The notes under the pieces: model-generated
The model's input: only the letters and a program-made list of their open reading frames with translations
Database searches by the model: none
Told to the model about the DNA's origin: nothing
Part shown: in pieces, positions 3,085 through 49,794 of the stretch
How the letters are laid out: each line of letters begins with the position of its first letter
How positions within the stretch are numbered: position 1 is the first letter of the stretch
Assembly: GCA_017473115.1 (NCBI GenBank)
Contig: JAFUNC010000001.1
Location: 119,104 to 183,103 of the forward strand
DNA length: 64,000 nucleotides
DNA from: Lachnospiraceae bacterium
Lineage (GTDB): Bacteria > Bacillota > Clostridia > Lachnospirales > Lachnospiraceae
Direction of reading: 5' to 3'
Made by a program: the position numbers and the translations under genes

Positions 3085-3159
3085 GATGAATATCCGCAAA
3101 GCCGGTTATTTTTTCTTACTTTATGTCACATGAAAATAAATTTTGTACCCCATGGCAGA

Positions 3160-4197
3160 CTACTCTTTGATTTCCTCATAAATTTCCCGAATCAAAAACA
3201 GACTGATCGGGCCCAAAATAATTCCCCCGATACTGAAAAACTGCATTCCGAAAAATACCGACAGCAAAACCACAATCGGATATACATTTAATTTATTTCC
3301 GATTAATTTCGGTTCTAAAATCTGTCTCAAAAACACACAAATTCCGTATACCAAAAGACAGCCGATTCCCTGCCATACATTCCCTTGTAAAAACAAAAAA
3401 ATCGCTATGGGAAGCAATACAATTCCGCTTCCGATAAAAGGCAGCATATCCAAAAAACCTGTCAAAAATCCCCATAAATACCAGCGTTGTACGCCGCAAA
3501 CCAGAAGTCCCGCCATAGATACGGCCGAAACGCAAAGAACGATAATAGCCTGCGCCTTAACATAAATTTTAAGAAGTGTAAGAATTTTGCGGCTCAGTTC
3601 TCTCATCTTTACAAATCCCTTGCTCTTACCCAATGCCGTTTTGATCCGGTCATAATCCTTGACAAGAAGGATTATGGCGATAACGGTTACTACAATTGCA
3701 AACACTGCATCAAAAACGGTACCTGCGTAAGAATAGGACGCATCCAATGCTTTCGGTGCAACATGATCCGTTACACTCACTACAAGATTTTCTGCACTTT
3801 CCATCACGCGTCTCTCAAGCCGCCCTGCATCCACCTGCATTTTTTCTCCCACAAAATCACAACAGGTGTGCAGAACATCCACACAACAATCCTTGAAATA
3901 GTCGCCGTTTTGTCTGAAATCTCCTACCATATCCATACAGCGGCAAATACCGAACCACCCGGCCAGCAAAAGAAGTGCCGCCAGCATTCCAAGCAGTACA
4001 CCCGCCAATATCCCAACGGGTATTTTTGTTTTTGCATTTATCTTCTTTAAGAAAGGAAGAAAAATCAACACAAAAAGAAATGCAATGAGAAAAGGCGCCA
4101 AAAAACTTACCGCATAACGAAAAAACAGCAGCACGCCTGCCGTAATCACCGTCAATTTGATAAAATTATGCTTCCACAAACCAAGTAAAAAACTCAT
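3160..4197 (-). CDS. AI-2E family (PerM/YtvI-like) membrane transporter
   Basis: Polytopic membrane protein of the AI-2E transporter family (345 residues). Two or three helices at the N-terminus (about residues 12-45 and 58-88) are followed by a polar amphipathic region (about 95-155) and then by several more helices containing the family's C-terminal pattern: GFLDMLPFIGSGIVLLPIA at about 248 and ILEPKLIGNKLNVYPIVVLL at about 292. Members of this family include exporters of the signal AI-2, Na+/H+ antiporters and the sporulation protein YtvI, so the substrate cannot be assigned from sequence alone. The start ATG has an AAAGGAGAGG site. It stands alone, with an A/T-rich palindrome (4229-4252) in its leader. 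Confidence 0.85.
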   Translation of the reverse strand: MSFLLGLWKHNFIKLTVITAGVLLFFRYAVSFLAPFLIAFLFVLIFLPFLKKINAKTKIPVGILAGVLLGMLAALLLLAGWFGICRCMDMVGDFRQNGDYFKDCCVDVLHTCCDFVGEKMQVDAGRLERRVMESAENLVVSVTDHVAPKALDASYSYAGTVFDAVFAIVVTVIAIILLVKDYDRIKTALGKSKGFVKMRELSRKILTLLKIYVKAQAIIVLCVSAVSMAGLLVCGVQRWYLWGFLTGFLDMLPFIGSGIVLLPIAIFLFLQGNVWQGIGCLLVYGICVFLRQILEPKLIGNKLNVYPIVVLLSVFFGMQFFSIGGIILGPISLFLIREIYEEIKE

Positions 4198-4333
4198 ACC
4201 GCACCTCTCCTTTGCCCCGAATAAAAGACTTTAAGAAAAAATTTTTCTTAAATCCAATCGTGTTTGTTAAGGTTAGTATGAGTTTTTTATCCTAAAATAA
4301 TCATTGTAATTTTTTACTGTATTATTGAAACTG

Positions 4334-5020
4334 CTAAAAAATTTCCGGTGCCGTGAAACTTACTTTTTTCCCCGTATTTGGATGTATAAAAGTCAATCGG
4401 AAGGCACAAAGTTTTAATCCTTTTCCCACTTTGGCCGATAATTCCGACGAACCCGGCGTTCCGTATTTTGTATCCCCGAGAATCGGATGTCCCGCATTAG
4501 ACATCTGCACACGAATCTGATGGTGTCTGCCGGTAAAAAGTGTAATCTCCACTTCGGAATATATTTCTTCCTCTACTGCAGTTTCCTGCAACACGCGATA
4601 CGAAAGTTTGGCTTTTTTACCCTGCTGTACTTCCCTGCTTCCTATCTTTACCACCCGGGATGTATTTGTTTTACCGTCTTTGAGCAAAATATCTTCCAAC
4701 ACACTCTCTTTTTCAGAAAATGCTCCGTACACCCGCGCACGATACATTTTCTCTGCCCTACCGTCCTGCACCTGCGCCGAAAGAGAAGCAGCGGCCGCCG
4801 GCGTTTTGGCGAATACAAGCACACCGCTTACGGGTTGGTCCAAACGATGTACCACACCGAGATACGGCTCTTTTCCTGTCGTATCTGATTTTTCTGCAAG
4901 ATAATTTTTTAACTCGCTGACCATATCCTGCTGAAAAACACCGGCAGTCTGTACCGCGATTCCCGCAGGCTTATAACATACCAAAATATCATTGTCTTCA
5001 TATATGATTTGCGTTTTCAT
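4334..5020 (-). CDS. RluA-family RNA pseudouridine synthase
   Basis: Converts a uridine of ribosomal or transfer RNA to pseudouridine. The 228-residue protein has no S4 domain and begins directly with the catalytic domain: YEDNDILVCYKPAGIAVQT (residues 5-24), then the active-site motif GVVHRLDQPVSGVLVFAKT at about 55-73 with the catalytic Asp in HRLD, then the C-terminal GRHHQIRVQMSNAGHPILGD motif. The start at 5020 was chosen because AAAGGTGAT lies upstream at proper distance and the first residues align with the family; a longer frame to 5080 adds only a Cys/Arg-rich stretch without homology. Target base unknown. Confidence 0.92.
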   Translation of the reverse strand: MKTQIIYEDNDILVCYKPAGIAVQTAGVFQQDMVSELKNYLAEKSDTTGKEPYLGVVHRLDQPVSGVLVFAKTPAAAASLSAQVQDGRAEKMYRARVYGAFSEKESVLEDILLKDGKTNTSRVVKIGSREVQQGKKAKLSYRVLQETAVEEEIYSEVEITLFTGRHHQIRVQMSNAGHPILGDTKYGTPGSSELSAKVGKGLKLCAFRLTFIHPNTGKKVSFTAPEIF

Positions 5021-32793: not shown

Positions 32794-33057
32794 CTTTTTA
32801 TATGTATAAAGGAATCCGACTATATATTCTGCTATTGCGTCTTTGTGGTAAGGATTTAAGTTTTCTTAGCATATCTCCTCTTAACTCAGCAATCCGCAGA
32901 CACGACGTCTGCGAAAACCGCAATCGAACCATGGATGGTGAGTTTGCGGTGTTTGCGTCCATTATACACTACTTCTATGAGATATGCTTAGAAAACTTTA
33001 TTCCTGAACACTTAAGCAAAACAGAATATATAGTCAGATTCCTTCCACATACAAAAG
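32794..33057. repeat. Nested palindromic element C (about 264 bp)
   Basis: Long imperfect inverted repeat, arms 32794-32877 and 32979-33057. Best-matching blocks are GACTATATATTCTG (perfect) and AGTTTTCTTAGCATATCTC against its complement with one mismatch. The 100-base interior has a perfect hairpin CGCAGACacgacGTCTGCG (32895-32913) and a second stem ACCGCAA/TTGCGGT (32917-32950). The only frame inside has no ribosome site and simply reads through the repeat. Lies between the pyk terminator and the DUF2809 gene. Layout resembles a miniature inverted-repeat element or a structured RNA; no transposase is nearby and no clear target duplication was seen. Confidence 0.7.
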
Positions 33058-45586: not shown

Positions 45587-45615
45587 TTTATAAACTGGAA
45601 GTTTTTTGCTATAAT
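45587..45615 (+). promoter_or_regulatory. Promoter of the second ECF sigma operon
   Basis: -35 TTTATA (45587-45592), 17-base spacer, perfect -10 TATAAT (45610-45615). A second sequence, TGAAACCTTTCGACC from 45626, resembles -35 regions of ECF-sigma promoters and could be an autoregulated start. Confidence 0.55.
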
Positions 45616-45707
45616 TTTTTAAAAATGAAACCTTTCGACCTTTTTATGTGTTTTATTGATATAAGAGCCTAAAATAAGAATGCGCATTACAAATGAAGGA
45701 GAAAACA

Positions 45708-46181
45708 ATGACAGAGGAATTATTCTGCCAACACTATGAAAAATATAAGAATACGGTGTATTCGGTGATATTTAACTACGTGCAGAATACGGAAGATACC
45801 GCGGACCTTTTACAGGAGGTCTTTATCAAATTGTTCTCTACAGAGAATATATTTGACACTGATGAATATTTGAAAGCCTGGCTGATTCGGGTTTCCATTA
45901 ACTTATGTAAAAATCACTTAAGAAGTGCAAAAGTACGCAAGATTGTCCCTTTAGAGGAAGATATTCCCTTCTTTGATAAAAATGAGGAAAACGATTTGCT
46001 AAAAGTTGTTTTTACACTACCGGAGAAATACCGAATCCCCATTCACCTATTCTATTACGAATCTTACAGCATTAAGGAAATAGGCGATATTTTGGATATG
46101 CCGGAGGCAACAGTCAAAATCCGACTGAAACGAGGCCGCGAGAAACTAGGTAAAATCTTGAACAAGGAGGATTGGTTGTAA
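45708..46181 (+). CDS. ECF-type RNA polymerase sigma factor (second locus)
   Basis: 157-residue ECF sigma. Region 2: NTVYSVIFNYVQNTEDTADL and EYLKAWLIRVSINLCKNHLR; region 4: LPEKYRIPIHLFYYESYSIK and EIGDILDMPEATVKIRLKRG. Shares the HLFYYE signature with the ECF sigma at 20694-21266, so the two belong to one subfamily. The start chosen at 45708 has AAGGAG six bases upstream; an in-frame ATG five codons before would lie on top of that site. Coupled by TAATG to its DUF4179 partner. Confidence 0.93.
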   Translation: MTEELFCQHYEKYKNTVYSVIFNYVQNTEDTADLLQEVFIKLFSTENIFDTDEYLKAWLIRVSINLCKNHLRSAKVRKIVPLEEDIPFFDKNEENDLLKVVFTLPEKYRIPIHLFYYESYSIKEIGDILDMPEATVKIRLKRGREKLGKILNKEDWL

Positions 46182-47503
46182 TGAAAACGAATGAACTTTA
46201 TATAGAACAGATCAATCAATTCTGCGAAGCCAATTGTAAGGTAACTGCCGAGGATATTCTTACCAAGGCAAAGCAGAGACAGGCAGAGAACGTGTTGGCC
46301 GAAACACCGGCTGCAAAAACTGCCGAAAAAACACGTTCCGCAAAAGAGGAAATGCAAACTACTGCATCTTCCGAAGAAAAAGAAACAATTTCCAAAAAAA
46401 CAGGCAAAGTAATAACAATGCCCTCAGGCAAAAAGGCGATGTTCCGCTTAAGCCATATAGTAGCCGCATGTTTGGCAATTTTCCTTTTAACCGGTACTAC
46501 TATCCTTGCTTTTAGCGGCAAAATCGGACACTTCTTCGGCGATGCAGGAGTAACCGTAGTTGCTTTTGACGAACGCAAAATGGAATTCTTTTTCCGGGAT
46601 GTTCTTAACGACGAAACAACAGCCGAACTGGTTGGCAAAGGCTATTTATACGAAATTAACCAGGTACAGGAAGATGAAAACTTCCGTATAGAGGTGATTG
46701 CAGCTTCAGGCGATGTAGACAATGCTAAATTAGCGGTTGATGTATATCTTAAGGACGAACATCTGGCAGCAGCAAACGACCGCATTTACTTAATCGGCTA
46801 TCTTGCAAATCCCGGTGAAGAACCGGTCAAAGATCCCAACGGTTGCAGAGTAACCGAAGCTTATGGCACTAAAGATGAAACCGTAGACAATTTATATCAT
46901 GTTCTTTTAGATATCGATTCTAGCCATTCGGAAGTTGTATATTGCTTCTCCACTGTTATTACTACTTTTGCTTCCGATGAAGATCAACCATTATATGTAT
47001 ATGATTTATTGCCCGAATTGGAAAGAAATCCTTTCTGGAGATGGCACTCACTGGATTTGCGTTTTAATATAACCATACCGGAAGATGCTTACAGCCGGAT
47101 TATAAACCGCCGCTACAGAGATATCGCTTATCACGGTGCAACATATGAATACCATTTGGATACGGTGGAATACGGCTTTTATGATACAAGACTTATGTTC
47201 CATTTCGACTATGACAGCGATTTTATTCCAAGCAATGAAGAAGGCGCAACAGCGTATGAAAGATATATGGCTACAGAATTCAATAGTATGTTACAGGATG
47301 CCGCGTTGATCGTGGATGGTACAGAATACAAATATGACAATAACAATCTCCTTCCTTGGTCTACGTGCTATTCCGGAGAGGGAGAAGACAACACCAACCG
47401 TTGCGAACTTACTATTTTCTTTCCTTCCGCAAACTACTTCGAATCCGAAAGTATTCTTTTACGAATCGGTGACGAAACCTATGATTTAAAAGAAAGTGAA
47501 TAA
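46181..47503 (+). CDS. DUF4179-like membrane protein, probable anti-sigma factor
   Basis: 440-residue bitopic protein: a cytoplasmic region of about 88 residues (unusually long, Glu/Thr/Lys-rich in the middle), one membrane helix (about 90-110) and then GHFFGDAGVTVVAFDERKME and a 320-residue extracellular domain with many acidic and aromatic residues. The location and TAATG overlap with an ECF sigma gene parallel the locus at 19552-21266. Divergent from that protein in sequence, so it probably senses a different signal. First of four co-directional envelope proteins. Confidence 0.82.
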   Translation: MKTNELYIEQINQFCEANCKVTAEDILTKAKQRQAENVLAETPAAKTAEKTRSAKEEMQTTASSEEKETISKKTGKVITMPSGKKAMFRLSHIVAACLAIFLLTGTTILAFSGKIGHFFGDAGVTVVAFDERKMEFFFRDVLNDETTAELVGKGYLYEINQVQEDENFRIEVIAASGDVDNAKLAVDVYLKDEHLAAANDRIYLIGYLANPGEEPVKDPNGCRVTEAYGTKDETVDNLYHVLLDIDSSHSEVVYCFSTVITTFASDEDQPLYVYDLLPELERNPFWRWHSLDLRFNITIPEDAYSRIINRRYRDIAYHGATYEYHLDTVEYGFYDTRLMFHFDYDSDFIPSNEEGATAYERYMATEFNSMLQDAALIVDGTEYKYDNNNLLPWSTCYSGEGEDNTNRCELTIFFPSANYFESESILLRIGDETYDLKESE

Positions 47504-47505
47504 AC

Positions 47506-48537
47506 ATGAGAAAATATATCAAAGTTTTTTTTAAAAAACGTTTTACGAAAAAAAATATTATTATTTTTTCTATTGTCCTCGTTATTTTCACACTTCTGGT
47601 CCTCTTTGGACCGGATACAACCATTGAATACGATTGGTTAAAACAAGAAAACGGTATCGGTTATCATAAAATAAATTCCAATCATATCAAAATGACTTGT
47701 CCCGGCGATTGGCTGAATGAGTCCGTTTATGCTTATACCTTGGAACACGGGACAGGTTCGGCTCCGTACGAATATAACGTACCCACCGATAAACTTATCC
47801 TTTTTTATGCGAAGGATTATATTAATGGCAAGAAGCACCCTGCTTCCATAACCATTACCTATCTTTCAGACCAAACAACACCGGTAAAAGATCAGGCGCT
47901 GGCCTTTGCTTCTACGCTTCAAACAACGGATGACTACAAGTTCATAGGCGAGGAAGCAACCACTTGGGAAGATGTAGGACGGTACTATTATCTGCACAAC
48001 GACGACCACTATGCAGATCCGTTTCCTTCTTATGAGTGGGATCTTGCAGTTTGGAAGTATGAATATATCGATAAAAGTACCAATCAAAAGTGCGAAACCC
48101 TCTTCTTTGAAAGAGCAGACGGCCTTTATTCCATTGATATGAAATATCCGCGTTTGAGCAAAGATATAAAAGAAGGAATGTATGCCTTGTTTGAAAATAT
48201 TGATTTCCAAATCGACTTAGAAATCGACCAGCAGATGGAGGATGCGCTTTCTTGTACAACAAAGAAAACAGACGATGAAGAACTGATTGTAGTAGTTACC
48301 TATGACGGAGAAGTTACGATTGATAAGTTATATTGTGAACTGGAAAGTTATTCTTCGGAAGGTTCCGAATTATCTGTCTCCTATGCTACAACTATGGAAC
48401 ATGATGTAAAACCCGGAGAAACCGTAGTGTTTACCTTTGATGCAAGAACCGTAAGTGACTTTGAAGGCATTGAACCTCGTGTTTTTGCTGCCTGGAGTGC
48501 ACATGATATAAAAGACGGCAGCAATAGAGCTTACTAA
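47506..48537 (+). CDS. Single-pass surface protein of unknown function
   Basis: 343 residues: a very basic cytoplasmic start (MRKYIKVFFKKRFTKKN), one helix (about 18-36), then an extracellular domain beginning PDTTIEYDWLKQENGIGYHK. HIKMTCPGDWLNESVYAYTL (about 62) and a later region rich in Tyr and Asp follow; the last 90 residues look like a beta-sandwich (VVTYDGEVTIDKLYCELESY). No family recognised. It starts two bases after the DUF4179 stop with a poor ribosome site, so it is probably translated by coupling. Paralogy with the protein at 48970 is possible: both have a helix then a GDW/SDW segment. Confidence 0.75.
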   Translation: MRKYIKVFFKKRFTKKNIIIFSIVLVIFTLLVLFGPDTTIEYDWLKQENGIGYHKINSNHIKMTCPGDWLNESVYAYTLEHGTGSAPYEYNVPTDKLILFYAKDYINGKKHPASITITYLSDQTTPVKDQALAFASTLQTTDDYKFIGEEATTWEDVGRYYYLHNDDHYADPFPSYEWDLAVWKYEYIDKSTNQKCETLFFERADGLYSIDMKYPRLSKDIKEGMYALFENIDFQIDLEIDQQMEDALSCTTKKTDDEELIVVVTYDGEVTIDKLYCELESYSSEGSELSVSYATTMEHDVKPGETVVFTFDARTVSDFEGIEPRVFAAWSAHDIKDGSNRAY

Positions 48538-48552
48538 AAAGGAGCAATAATT

Positions 48553-48936
48553 ATGAAAAACAAAAAAATAATAATTGGCGTGACAATTGCTTTTTTATCA
48601 ATTATCATTTTACTGGGTGGCATTGCTCTTGCAATATTTCTCCCACTCAAAGATTACCTGGATGAAACACCGAAAATCACACCGGACCCTACCATTACGG
48701 TAGCACACGGTGAAACCTTATCGGTATCGGACCTTTGTCAGGTAGAATGTAAAGGAAATTATACTCTTTCTTTGAGTATTACCGAAACACAGATTCCCGA
48801 CGCTGTAGTAAGCGCAGACAAACAATCCATTTATGTGGGATCTTCTGCCGGTGTAATTATCGTAGAAATTATGGGCAGAGGAGAAAATGCCGAAAGCAGA
48901 TGCGTAAATGCGCGAATTCTGGTAGACTTGGATTAA
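48553..48936 (+). CDS. Small single-pass protein with Ig-like ectodomain
   Basis: 127 residues: short basic N-terminus, helix (about 8-30), Pro-rich linker (DETPKITPDPTITVAHGETL) and one domain of about 75 residues of beta-strand character (LSVSDLCQVECKGNYTLSLS, VVSADKQSIYVGSSAGVIIV). It resembles a bacterial Ig-like domain, with Cys residues that may form a disulfide, but I cannot name the family. Excellent AAAAGGAG site. Fourth gene of the sigma operon. Confidence 0.7.
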   Translation: MKNKKIIIGVTIAFLSIIILLGGIALAIFLPLKDYLDETPKITPDPTITVAHGETLSVSDLCQVECKGNYTLSLSITETQIPDAVVSADKQSIYVGSSAGVIIVEIMGRGENAESRCVNARILVDLD

Positions 48937-48969
48937 GAAATCTCCACCGTATCTTTGAAAGGAACACCG

Positions 48970-49794
48970 ATGAACAAGACAAAAAAAATCGTTATTATTG
49001 CAATAATTGCCGTGCTTTTAACGGCTGTACTGTATTTTATCATTCTTCATCCCCGCATTAAAACATACTTATCAACTGTCGCAATCTATGAAGAATTCGG
49101 CGGCAATCGTGATATTGGTGAGCCAATTATCGAATACGATCATTCTAACGTAACGGATGAATCTCTGGTTCTGACAGACTTTGGAACCTTTCGTCTCGGT
49201 ATTCCGTCCGACTGGGAAGACCGGAGCAAAGAAGACTCTGAATTCACCACATATTGCACCATCGGAGCTGCAAACGCGGTAGGAAAAGAACTTGAACCGA
49301 ATGAGGAAATTATGGTTTTTAATCCTGCGGGAAATGATAATTCTTCCATTGTACTCTTAAATAATGAAGAATTGTATGAAGAATCCGGATTTTCAGATGC
49401 GGATATCAGACACTTAACAAGAGGATTTGAGAAATTAGGCTACGAAATGCCGGATAGTGCTTATGCCACCTTAAAATGTGCACATTCCATTACTCCGGAT
49501 GACTATAATTTCTTAAAATATGATGAATCGCTTGCTTTTACCTACGCCCTTGTTTTCAGGGCCGGCAGTCTGTACTACTCTAATGGCAACACTGCTAAAA
49601 CATATTATTACGAAACTGACAATAAATGTGCAATCATTAATGAACAATACAGACCGGACTACGACGGAAAATATCATTTTAAAATGGAAGTTTATGATGC
49701 GGATGACTTAAACACAGGATATATATTTACTATGACGGTAACAGATAAGGAAACCGCTTATGCGATTATTAATTCATTGACCTTTGATGACTAA
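48970..49794 (+). CDS. Single-pass surface protein of unknown function
   Basis: 274 residues: MNKTKKIVIIAIIAVLLTAV with one helix (about 6-27), then an extracellular domain with LVLTDFGTFRLGIPSDWEDR (about 60), GFSDADIRHLTRGFEKLGYE (about 138) and several Tyr/Asp-rich strands. No family recognised. The start at 48970 has AAAGGA at seven bases; a TTG five codons earlier is in frame but overlaps that site. Last gene of the operon, before a strong terminator. Confidence 0.75.
   Translation: MNKTKKIVIIAIIAVLLTAVLYFIILHPRIKTYLSTVAIYEEFGGNRDIGEPIIEYDHSNVTDESLVLTDFGTFRLGIPSDWEDRSKEDSEFTTYCTIGAANAVGKELEPNEEIMVFNPAGNDNSSIVLLNNEELYEESGFSDADIRHLTRGFEKLGYEMPDSAYATLKCAHSITPDDYNFLKYDESLAFTYALVFRAGSLYYSNGNTAKTYYYETDNKCAIINEQYRPDYDGKYHFKMEVYDADDLNTGYIFTMTVTDKETAYAIINSLTFDD

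Follow-up and report, generated by a model that had tools for sequence, protein, structure and literature searches.

A probable autoregulated ECF sigma factor system with a small predicted regulon of membrane-anchored proteins in a Lachnospiraceae bacterium

The window analysed here is a 64,000-nucleotide stretch of a Lachnospiraceae genome (G000; GCA_017473115.1, contig JAFUNC010000001.1, positions 119,104 to 183,103), and the locus of interest occupies a slot in it between a rubrerythrin gene and a chemotaxis-receptor gene. Five ORFs are found at the positions that the original prediction had assigned to them, and together with the flanking elements they make up the following features:

45587..45615, + strand: possible basal promoter, TTTATA-17-TGnTATAAT with an extended -10; a consensus match only, with TGCTATAAT also present in the sister genome
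45626..45655, + strand: predicted ECF-type autoregulatory promoter, TGAAACCTTT-N11-TGTGTTTTA, 30 bp; conserved in the sister genome and recurring exactly
45708..46181, + strand: P0001, ECF sigma factor, 157 aa; Pfam Sigma70_r2 and Sigma70_r4_2
46181..47503, + strand: P0002, single-pass anti-sigma candidate, 440 aa; from its position, its overlap with the sigma gene and its one helix
47506..48537, + strand: P0003, single-pass exported protein, 343 aa; from hydropathy, with a relative in genome G027
48553..48936, + strand: P0004, small single-pass exported protein, 127 aa; an ectodomain homologue is found among the predicted regulon proteins of the sister genome
48970..49794, + strand: P0005, single-pass exported protein, 274 aa; a family of the genus, with an LHPR-like motif after the helix
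49826..49882, + strand: likely terminator hairpin, serving the convergent chemotaxis-receptor gene as well; -24.7 kcal/mol, z -5.7

The sigma gene and its partner are coupled by a one-base overlap in TAATG and the gaps that follow measure 2, 15 and 33 bases, all as originally described. P0002 to P0005 have one hydrophobic helix apiece, as judged from hydropathy only, which agrees with the single-helix exported layout proposed for the three downstream proteins. Between 45100 and 50000 the number of promoter-like sites (20 versus 14.7 ± 4.3 by chance) and that of terminator-like sites (4 versus 3.5 ± 1.8) are both at the chance level, and the strong hairpin 3' of P0005 is followed by a T-rich tail. 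Given the chance-level counts of internal sites, the packing of the genes and the position of the hairpin, it is likely that the five genes form one operon.

P0001 contains Sigma70_r2 at residues 10-75 and Sigma70_r4_2 at residues 103-147 (Pfam, 1e-13 and 9e-13) and thus comprises sigma regions 2 and 4 only, the domain composition of an ECF (group IV sigma-70) factor. According to PMC8103513, AAC/CGT was among the early criteria for ECFs, and the definition was later narrowed so that the two sigma domains alone count. PMC8103513 and PMC3817407 describe it as usual for an ECF gene to be positively autoregulated and co-transcribed with that of its anti-sigma factor. A close relative of P0001 is present in just 2 of the 31 genomes of the genus that we searched, and the protein encoded by the sister genome (G001) is 89% identical.

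The original prediction made no mention of the conserved ECF-type site at 45626-45655, which ends 52 bases 5' of the sigma ATG. Upstream of the sigma gene of the sister genome TGAAACCTTT and TGTGTTTTA are both conserved and the 11-base spacer differs. The -35 element is of the AAC type (TGAAAC at 45626, conserved in the sister genome and recurring elsewhere). The -10 element is not of the CGT type: it reads TGTGTTTTA, with the box TGTG, in all seven exact copies of the motif that we found.

These seven copies of TGAAACCTTT-N11-TGTGTTTTA are distributed over 3 of the 31 genomes (two in G000, four in G001 and one in G027), with no one-mismatch copy and no match to the reversed control, a pattern that is not chance-like because chance would yield many more one-mismatch than exact copies. 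A slightly looser pattern, allowed up to three mismatches, matches the window once, with 0.02 matches expected. When up to three mismatches were allowed in six genomes, 30 sites were obtained versus 14 for the reversed control, and since this count is not far above the control we place trust in the exact copies only. All seven lie 30-66 nt 5' of an ORF of the same sense, the likely ATG being taken as its start. Two of them precede the operon itself, in G000 and G001; three precede a 94-aa protein in G000, G001 and G027, which has two hydrophobic stretches by hydropathy of the G000 copy; one, in G001, precedes a 272-aa single-pass protein; and one, also in G001, precedes a YcxB-like protein (Pfam, 4e-10), behind which a single-pass protein of 134 aa is encoded. 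As the window genome is 85% complete, its count of two sites is a lower bound.

The 272-aa protein links an unlinked site to the operon. Its first ectodomain aligns with P0004 with a score of 74, compared with 25.7 ± 4.6 for shuffled sequences (0 of 1000 as good), and when this ectodomain is used as the query against the window genome, P0004 is found (E 6.5e-4); the 134-aa protein has no likeness to P0004 in the same shuffle test. The very genome whose operon is devoid of P0004 therefore has a P0004-type gene elsewhere, preceded by the same promoter. The recurrence of the promoter before the sigma operon and before membrane-protein genes makes an autoregulated ECF system the most likely explanation, and we infer that TGAAACCTTT-N11-TGTGTTTTA is recognised by P0001. 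The original suggestion of a sigma factor that drives surface proteins of uncharacterised type thus gains ground at the level of sequence from the shared promoter, the unlinked membrane-protein genes and the P0004-type protein; what finds no support is the notion that these proteins form a fixed set.

G027 has an exact promoter copy and no close sigma: its sole sigma match at E ≤ 1e-15, in a genome that is 97% complete, is 34% identical to P0001. In that genome the promoter could therefore be read by another sigma factor, or the cognate sigma gene could have been lost recently.

Outside the genus, the full motif precedes a different ECF sigma gene in a Ruminococcus contig (L115), and in another Ruminococcus (L123) the same ECF gene starts right after it, which supports an ECF-type promoter; the L115 sigma is only 36% identical to P0001. 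Both genomes come from roe deer, the sites being at 4250 in L115 and 7536 in L123 in reverse-strand coordinates. These sites emerged from a DNA scan of named genomes with a looser 29-base pattern, which returned 44 stretches, four of them contigs of G001 and the other 40 read by us. Twenty-four of the 40 are mainly from Flavobacteriaceae, Bacteroidetes and Ignavibacteria, with the match inside a long ORF in 21 cases and not in three. The remaining 16 comprise the two sites before an ECF sigma gene, the G027 site (L136), four sites before ParA-type genes, four before sugar-transferase-type genes and five others (L117, L119, L133, L143, L151). The full 30-base motif is present in just three of the 40 stretches: L115, L123 and L136.

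Many other ECF genes of the genus have a TGNNACCTTT-like box upstream and differ in their -10 regions. Their operons (e.g. L029, L041, L051) resemble the one described here in that the sigma gene is followed by an overlapping single-pass partner, and are set apart from it by sigma factors of 38-45% identity and by those different -10 regions; the comparison covers about 1.5 kb behind each sigma gene. By eye, the -10 region of several of these operons (upstream regions in L029-L056) resembles TGTATTA or ATATTATTA, not CGT. A separate upstream sequence, TGCAACCTTTTTGC..TATACTTTGTTTTA, is kept in G000, G001 and G019 (L084, L094, L076) before a gene that we take, from reading it, to encode a MoxR-like ATPase, and is similar to the box found before another ECF gene of the genus (L042, L049). 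In G001, just upstream of the sigma gene, there is a gene (L010, ~3150-4681) whose 472-aa product looks exported and has an HExxH-like site; some 83 nt before it stands a two-mismatch copy of the motif that precedes the P0001 gene, TGAAACCTTC..CCGTGTTTTA; this protein is a possible further regulon member, the motif copy being one that does not separate from chance.

P0002 is a candidate anti-sigma factor by its position and its layout, with about 88 residues predicted inside the cell, one helix and about 330 residues outside, and the sister-genome protein is 69% identical. The original prediction had placed it in DUF4179, an assignment that we reject because Pfam and a profile comparison both speak against it. 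P0002 has no Pfam match up to E 5 and is not among the matches of a PF13786 search of the whole genome, and against 14 DUF4179 proteins it scored 6.7% over 12 columns, versus 64-99% for all 14 DUF4179 proteins when left out in turn and 88-97% for all four that fall below the cut-off. This comparison, with its controls, repeats an earlier one and is restricted to the 14 proteins over the cut-off; the earlier value of 1.9% came from 27 roughly chosen proteins, including some (e.g. L174, L175, L181) whose DUF4179 status is not clear. The finding that sigma genes adjoin 6 of the 27 DUF4179 genes stems from crude text matching and is given no weight here. DUF4179 anti-sigma factors are common in this bacterial family, being found in 29 of 60 genomes at E ≤ 0.001 and in 15 over the cut-off; P0002 shares their general layout and has no detectable sequence or profile similarity to them. 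In 397 genomes of the family, a search with P0002 returned itself and two weak matches, located in a different kind of protein or in a stop-containing frame, and what likeness it has to L041, another candidate anti-sigma factor in the genus, is chiefly around the helix.

On the same lines of evidence, P0002 is very improbable as an RsiV-type anti-sigma factor, one with a DUF4179 domain that signal peptidase can cleave only once a ligand, for example lysozyme, is bound. The layout is the same (a short inside part, one helix and a large outside domain) and an amphipathic stretch, recognised by hydrophobic moment only, follows the helix at residues 131-142, but the strongest amphipathic windows of P0002 lie elsewhere. 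RsiV is characterised by DUF4179 and a lysozyme-binding ectodomain, whereas P0002 matches neither DUF4179 nor any other Pfam family and scores far from the DUF4179 controls. The genome also has a separate sigma and DUF4179-type anti-sigma pair (C6; L013, 6807-8376), whose DUF4179 match is under the Pfam cut-off and whose anti-sigma factor is, from our reading, presumably RsiV-like.

The data do not support the five-gene set as a fixed system, its full order being found in no other genome searched. In the sister genome the sigma and anti-sigma genes are followed by a P0003 broken by frame changes and internal loss, then by two genes of the P0005 type, the first being P0005 itself, and then by genes that we take to be transposase-like; P0004 is absent. 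The broken P0003 and the missing P0004 imply that these two are dispensable there. The rubrerythrin slot is common only to G000, G001 and G027 among 12 genomes with a strong rubrerythrin match; eight of the other nine rubrerythrin stretches have different neighbours, and in the ninth (L109) the gene was missed by the word search. In G027, a P0003 relative of 34% identity stands alone in the slot, without the sigma gene, and the flanking DNA is conserved up to approximately the promoter. This relative (L011, 6652-7734, compared with 47506-48537 of the window) adjoins a rubrerythrin that is 96% identical to that of the window, and we read it as a swapped or very fast evolving gene. A promoter remnant before it, plausible by eye, is not significant (12.5 versus 12.3 ± 2.0).

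Such observations would also fit a reading in which the sigma and anti-sigma factors control mainly themselves and unlinked genes, P0003 to P0005 being wandering families of the genus that are co-transcribed in a variable slot. The lone P0003 relative of G027, with its low identity next to a nearly identical rubrerythrin, and the reduced operon of the sister genome speak for it, as do relatives of P0005 elsewhere (C10 and a fragment at C16 in G000, and in G018 and G019), whose listed neighbouring ORFs include no ECF sigma gene; a partial P0005 match is also found at a contig end in G001 (C100). Against it, the operon retains P0005 in both genomes with the sigma gene, in G001 even as two copies, purifying selection seems to act on P0005, and an unlinked copy of the promoter precedes a P0004-type gene. 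We consider this reading rather unlikely. Relative to the sister genome, dN/dS is 0.12 for P0005 (dS ~1.4, near saturation), 0.07 for the sigma factor, 0.16 for the anti-sigma ectodomain and 0.03 for rubrerythrin, values that are rough at a dS of 0.6-1.4. The original prediction had treated separation of the three genes from the sigma gene as evidence against it: such separation is seen for P0003, for P0005 and weakly for P0004, and P0005 is also retained beside the sigma gene in both genomes that have this sigma. The weak relatives of P0004 are found in five further genomes of the genus (E 3e-4 to 5e-3); they are small single-pass-looking proteins (L184, L185, L187, L188, L189) whose neighbours we take to be pantothenate-kinase-like and/or dihydrouridine-synthase-like.

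That the downstream ectodomains cannot be placed in a family is borne out, P0003 to P0005, and P0002 as well, falling below every Pfam and NCBIfam family cut-off. Sub-threshold matches are seen between P0003 and Sigma_reg_N (E 0.11, around the helix) and MrpA_fam (E 0.005), between P0005 and YxeA (E 0.07), and between a P0005 relative and DUF4179 (E 0.11, around the helix). From the sequence pattern we would guess at PsbP/DcrB-like ectodomains for P0003 and P0005, neither of which has a Pfam match to a family of that fold, and at an Ig-like one for P0004. Homology between P0003 and P0005 does not reach significance, 309 of 1000 shuffled sequences scoring as well. A search for P0003 relatives in a collection of 84,980 species gave seven pattern matches and none that was confirmed, and one in 250 genomes of the family found the window only. 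A separate match in G034, which falls within a lipoprotein-like gene, was judged to be chance.

The close packing of these genes with those of the sigma and anti-sigma factors, and the single helix and outward domain of each product, could alternatively indicate extra sensor parts that bind the P0002 ectodomain or the sigma factor and tune or reset the system by feedback. The Sigma_reg_N and DUF4179 matches point the same way and may reflect helix likeness only. The sets differ between G000 and G001, however, and relatives exist without P0002, and we regard such a role as improbable.

We thus favour a model, which we hold to be probable, in which the locus encodes an autoregulated switch composed of an ECF sigma factor and a membrane anti-sigma factor that together control a small set of membrane-anchored proteins. 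Against it weigh, above all, the G027 promoter copy that lacks a close sigma gene, and further the presence of the sigma factor in just 2 of 31 genomes, the losses from the sister operon and the TGTG -10 box. In the resting state, P0002 would keep the sigma factor at the membrane. A signal from outside, acting on the P0002 ectodomain, would lead to release of the sigma factor, probably by stepwise proteolysis as expected of the class; the regulated proteolysis step is suggested by analogy with RsiV (PMC6066255). The freed sigma factor would transcribe from TGAAACCTTT-N11-TGTGTTTTA, boosting its own operon, P0001 to P0005, and would also act at a few unlinked loci that encode small membrane proteins. 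The products of the regulon would probably modify, shield or monitor the envelope, and the class of protein suggests that it is the envelope that is sensed. Taken as a whole, the system looks genuine if fairly ordinary: an envelope response of a gut bacterium, with a known type of ECF/anti-sigma signalling and uncharacterised outputs.

Among the ECF sigma and membrane anti-sigma pairs of Firmicutes, the SigV-RsiV system of B. subtilis (PMC6066255) and the SigP-RsiP system of B. thuringiensis (PMC8844934) have the same two-domain sigma factor, an overlapping single-pass partner and a promoter upstream with an AAC-type -35 element. The present system differs from what is described there in that the P0002 ectodomain matches no family, DUF4179 included, in that the -10 region is TGTGTTTTA and not CGT, and in that the predicted regulon consists of small membrane proteins and not of known resistance genes. 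Our searches of an open-access library turned up no description of this system. According to PMC7438776, C. difficile has three ECF sigma factors whose promoter consensus was still to be identified in 2020, and a clostridial ECF promoter defined as having a TGTG -10 is useful for that reason. The analysis provides a Lachnospiraceae ECF factor with a concrete predicted promoter and regulon and ties several uncharacterised protein families to a single switch that probably serves an envelope response. More tentatively, the sigma factor and promoter may be a fixed socket for exported domains of the P0003, P0004 and P0005 types that are swapped between species, with an anti-sigma ectodomain of an undescribed family, a possibility that we hold to be less likely than not; if it were true, this would be a clade-specific ECF system for surface remodelling with quickly replaced single-pass proteins.

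Elsewhere in the window, positions 32844-33012 (+ strand) hold a TwoAYGGAY RNA (RF01731, 122.5 bits); nothing else in the window matches Rfam at the gathering threshold.
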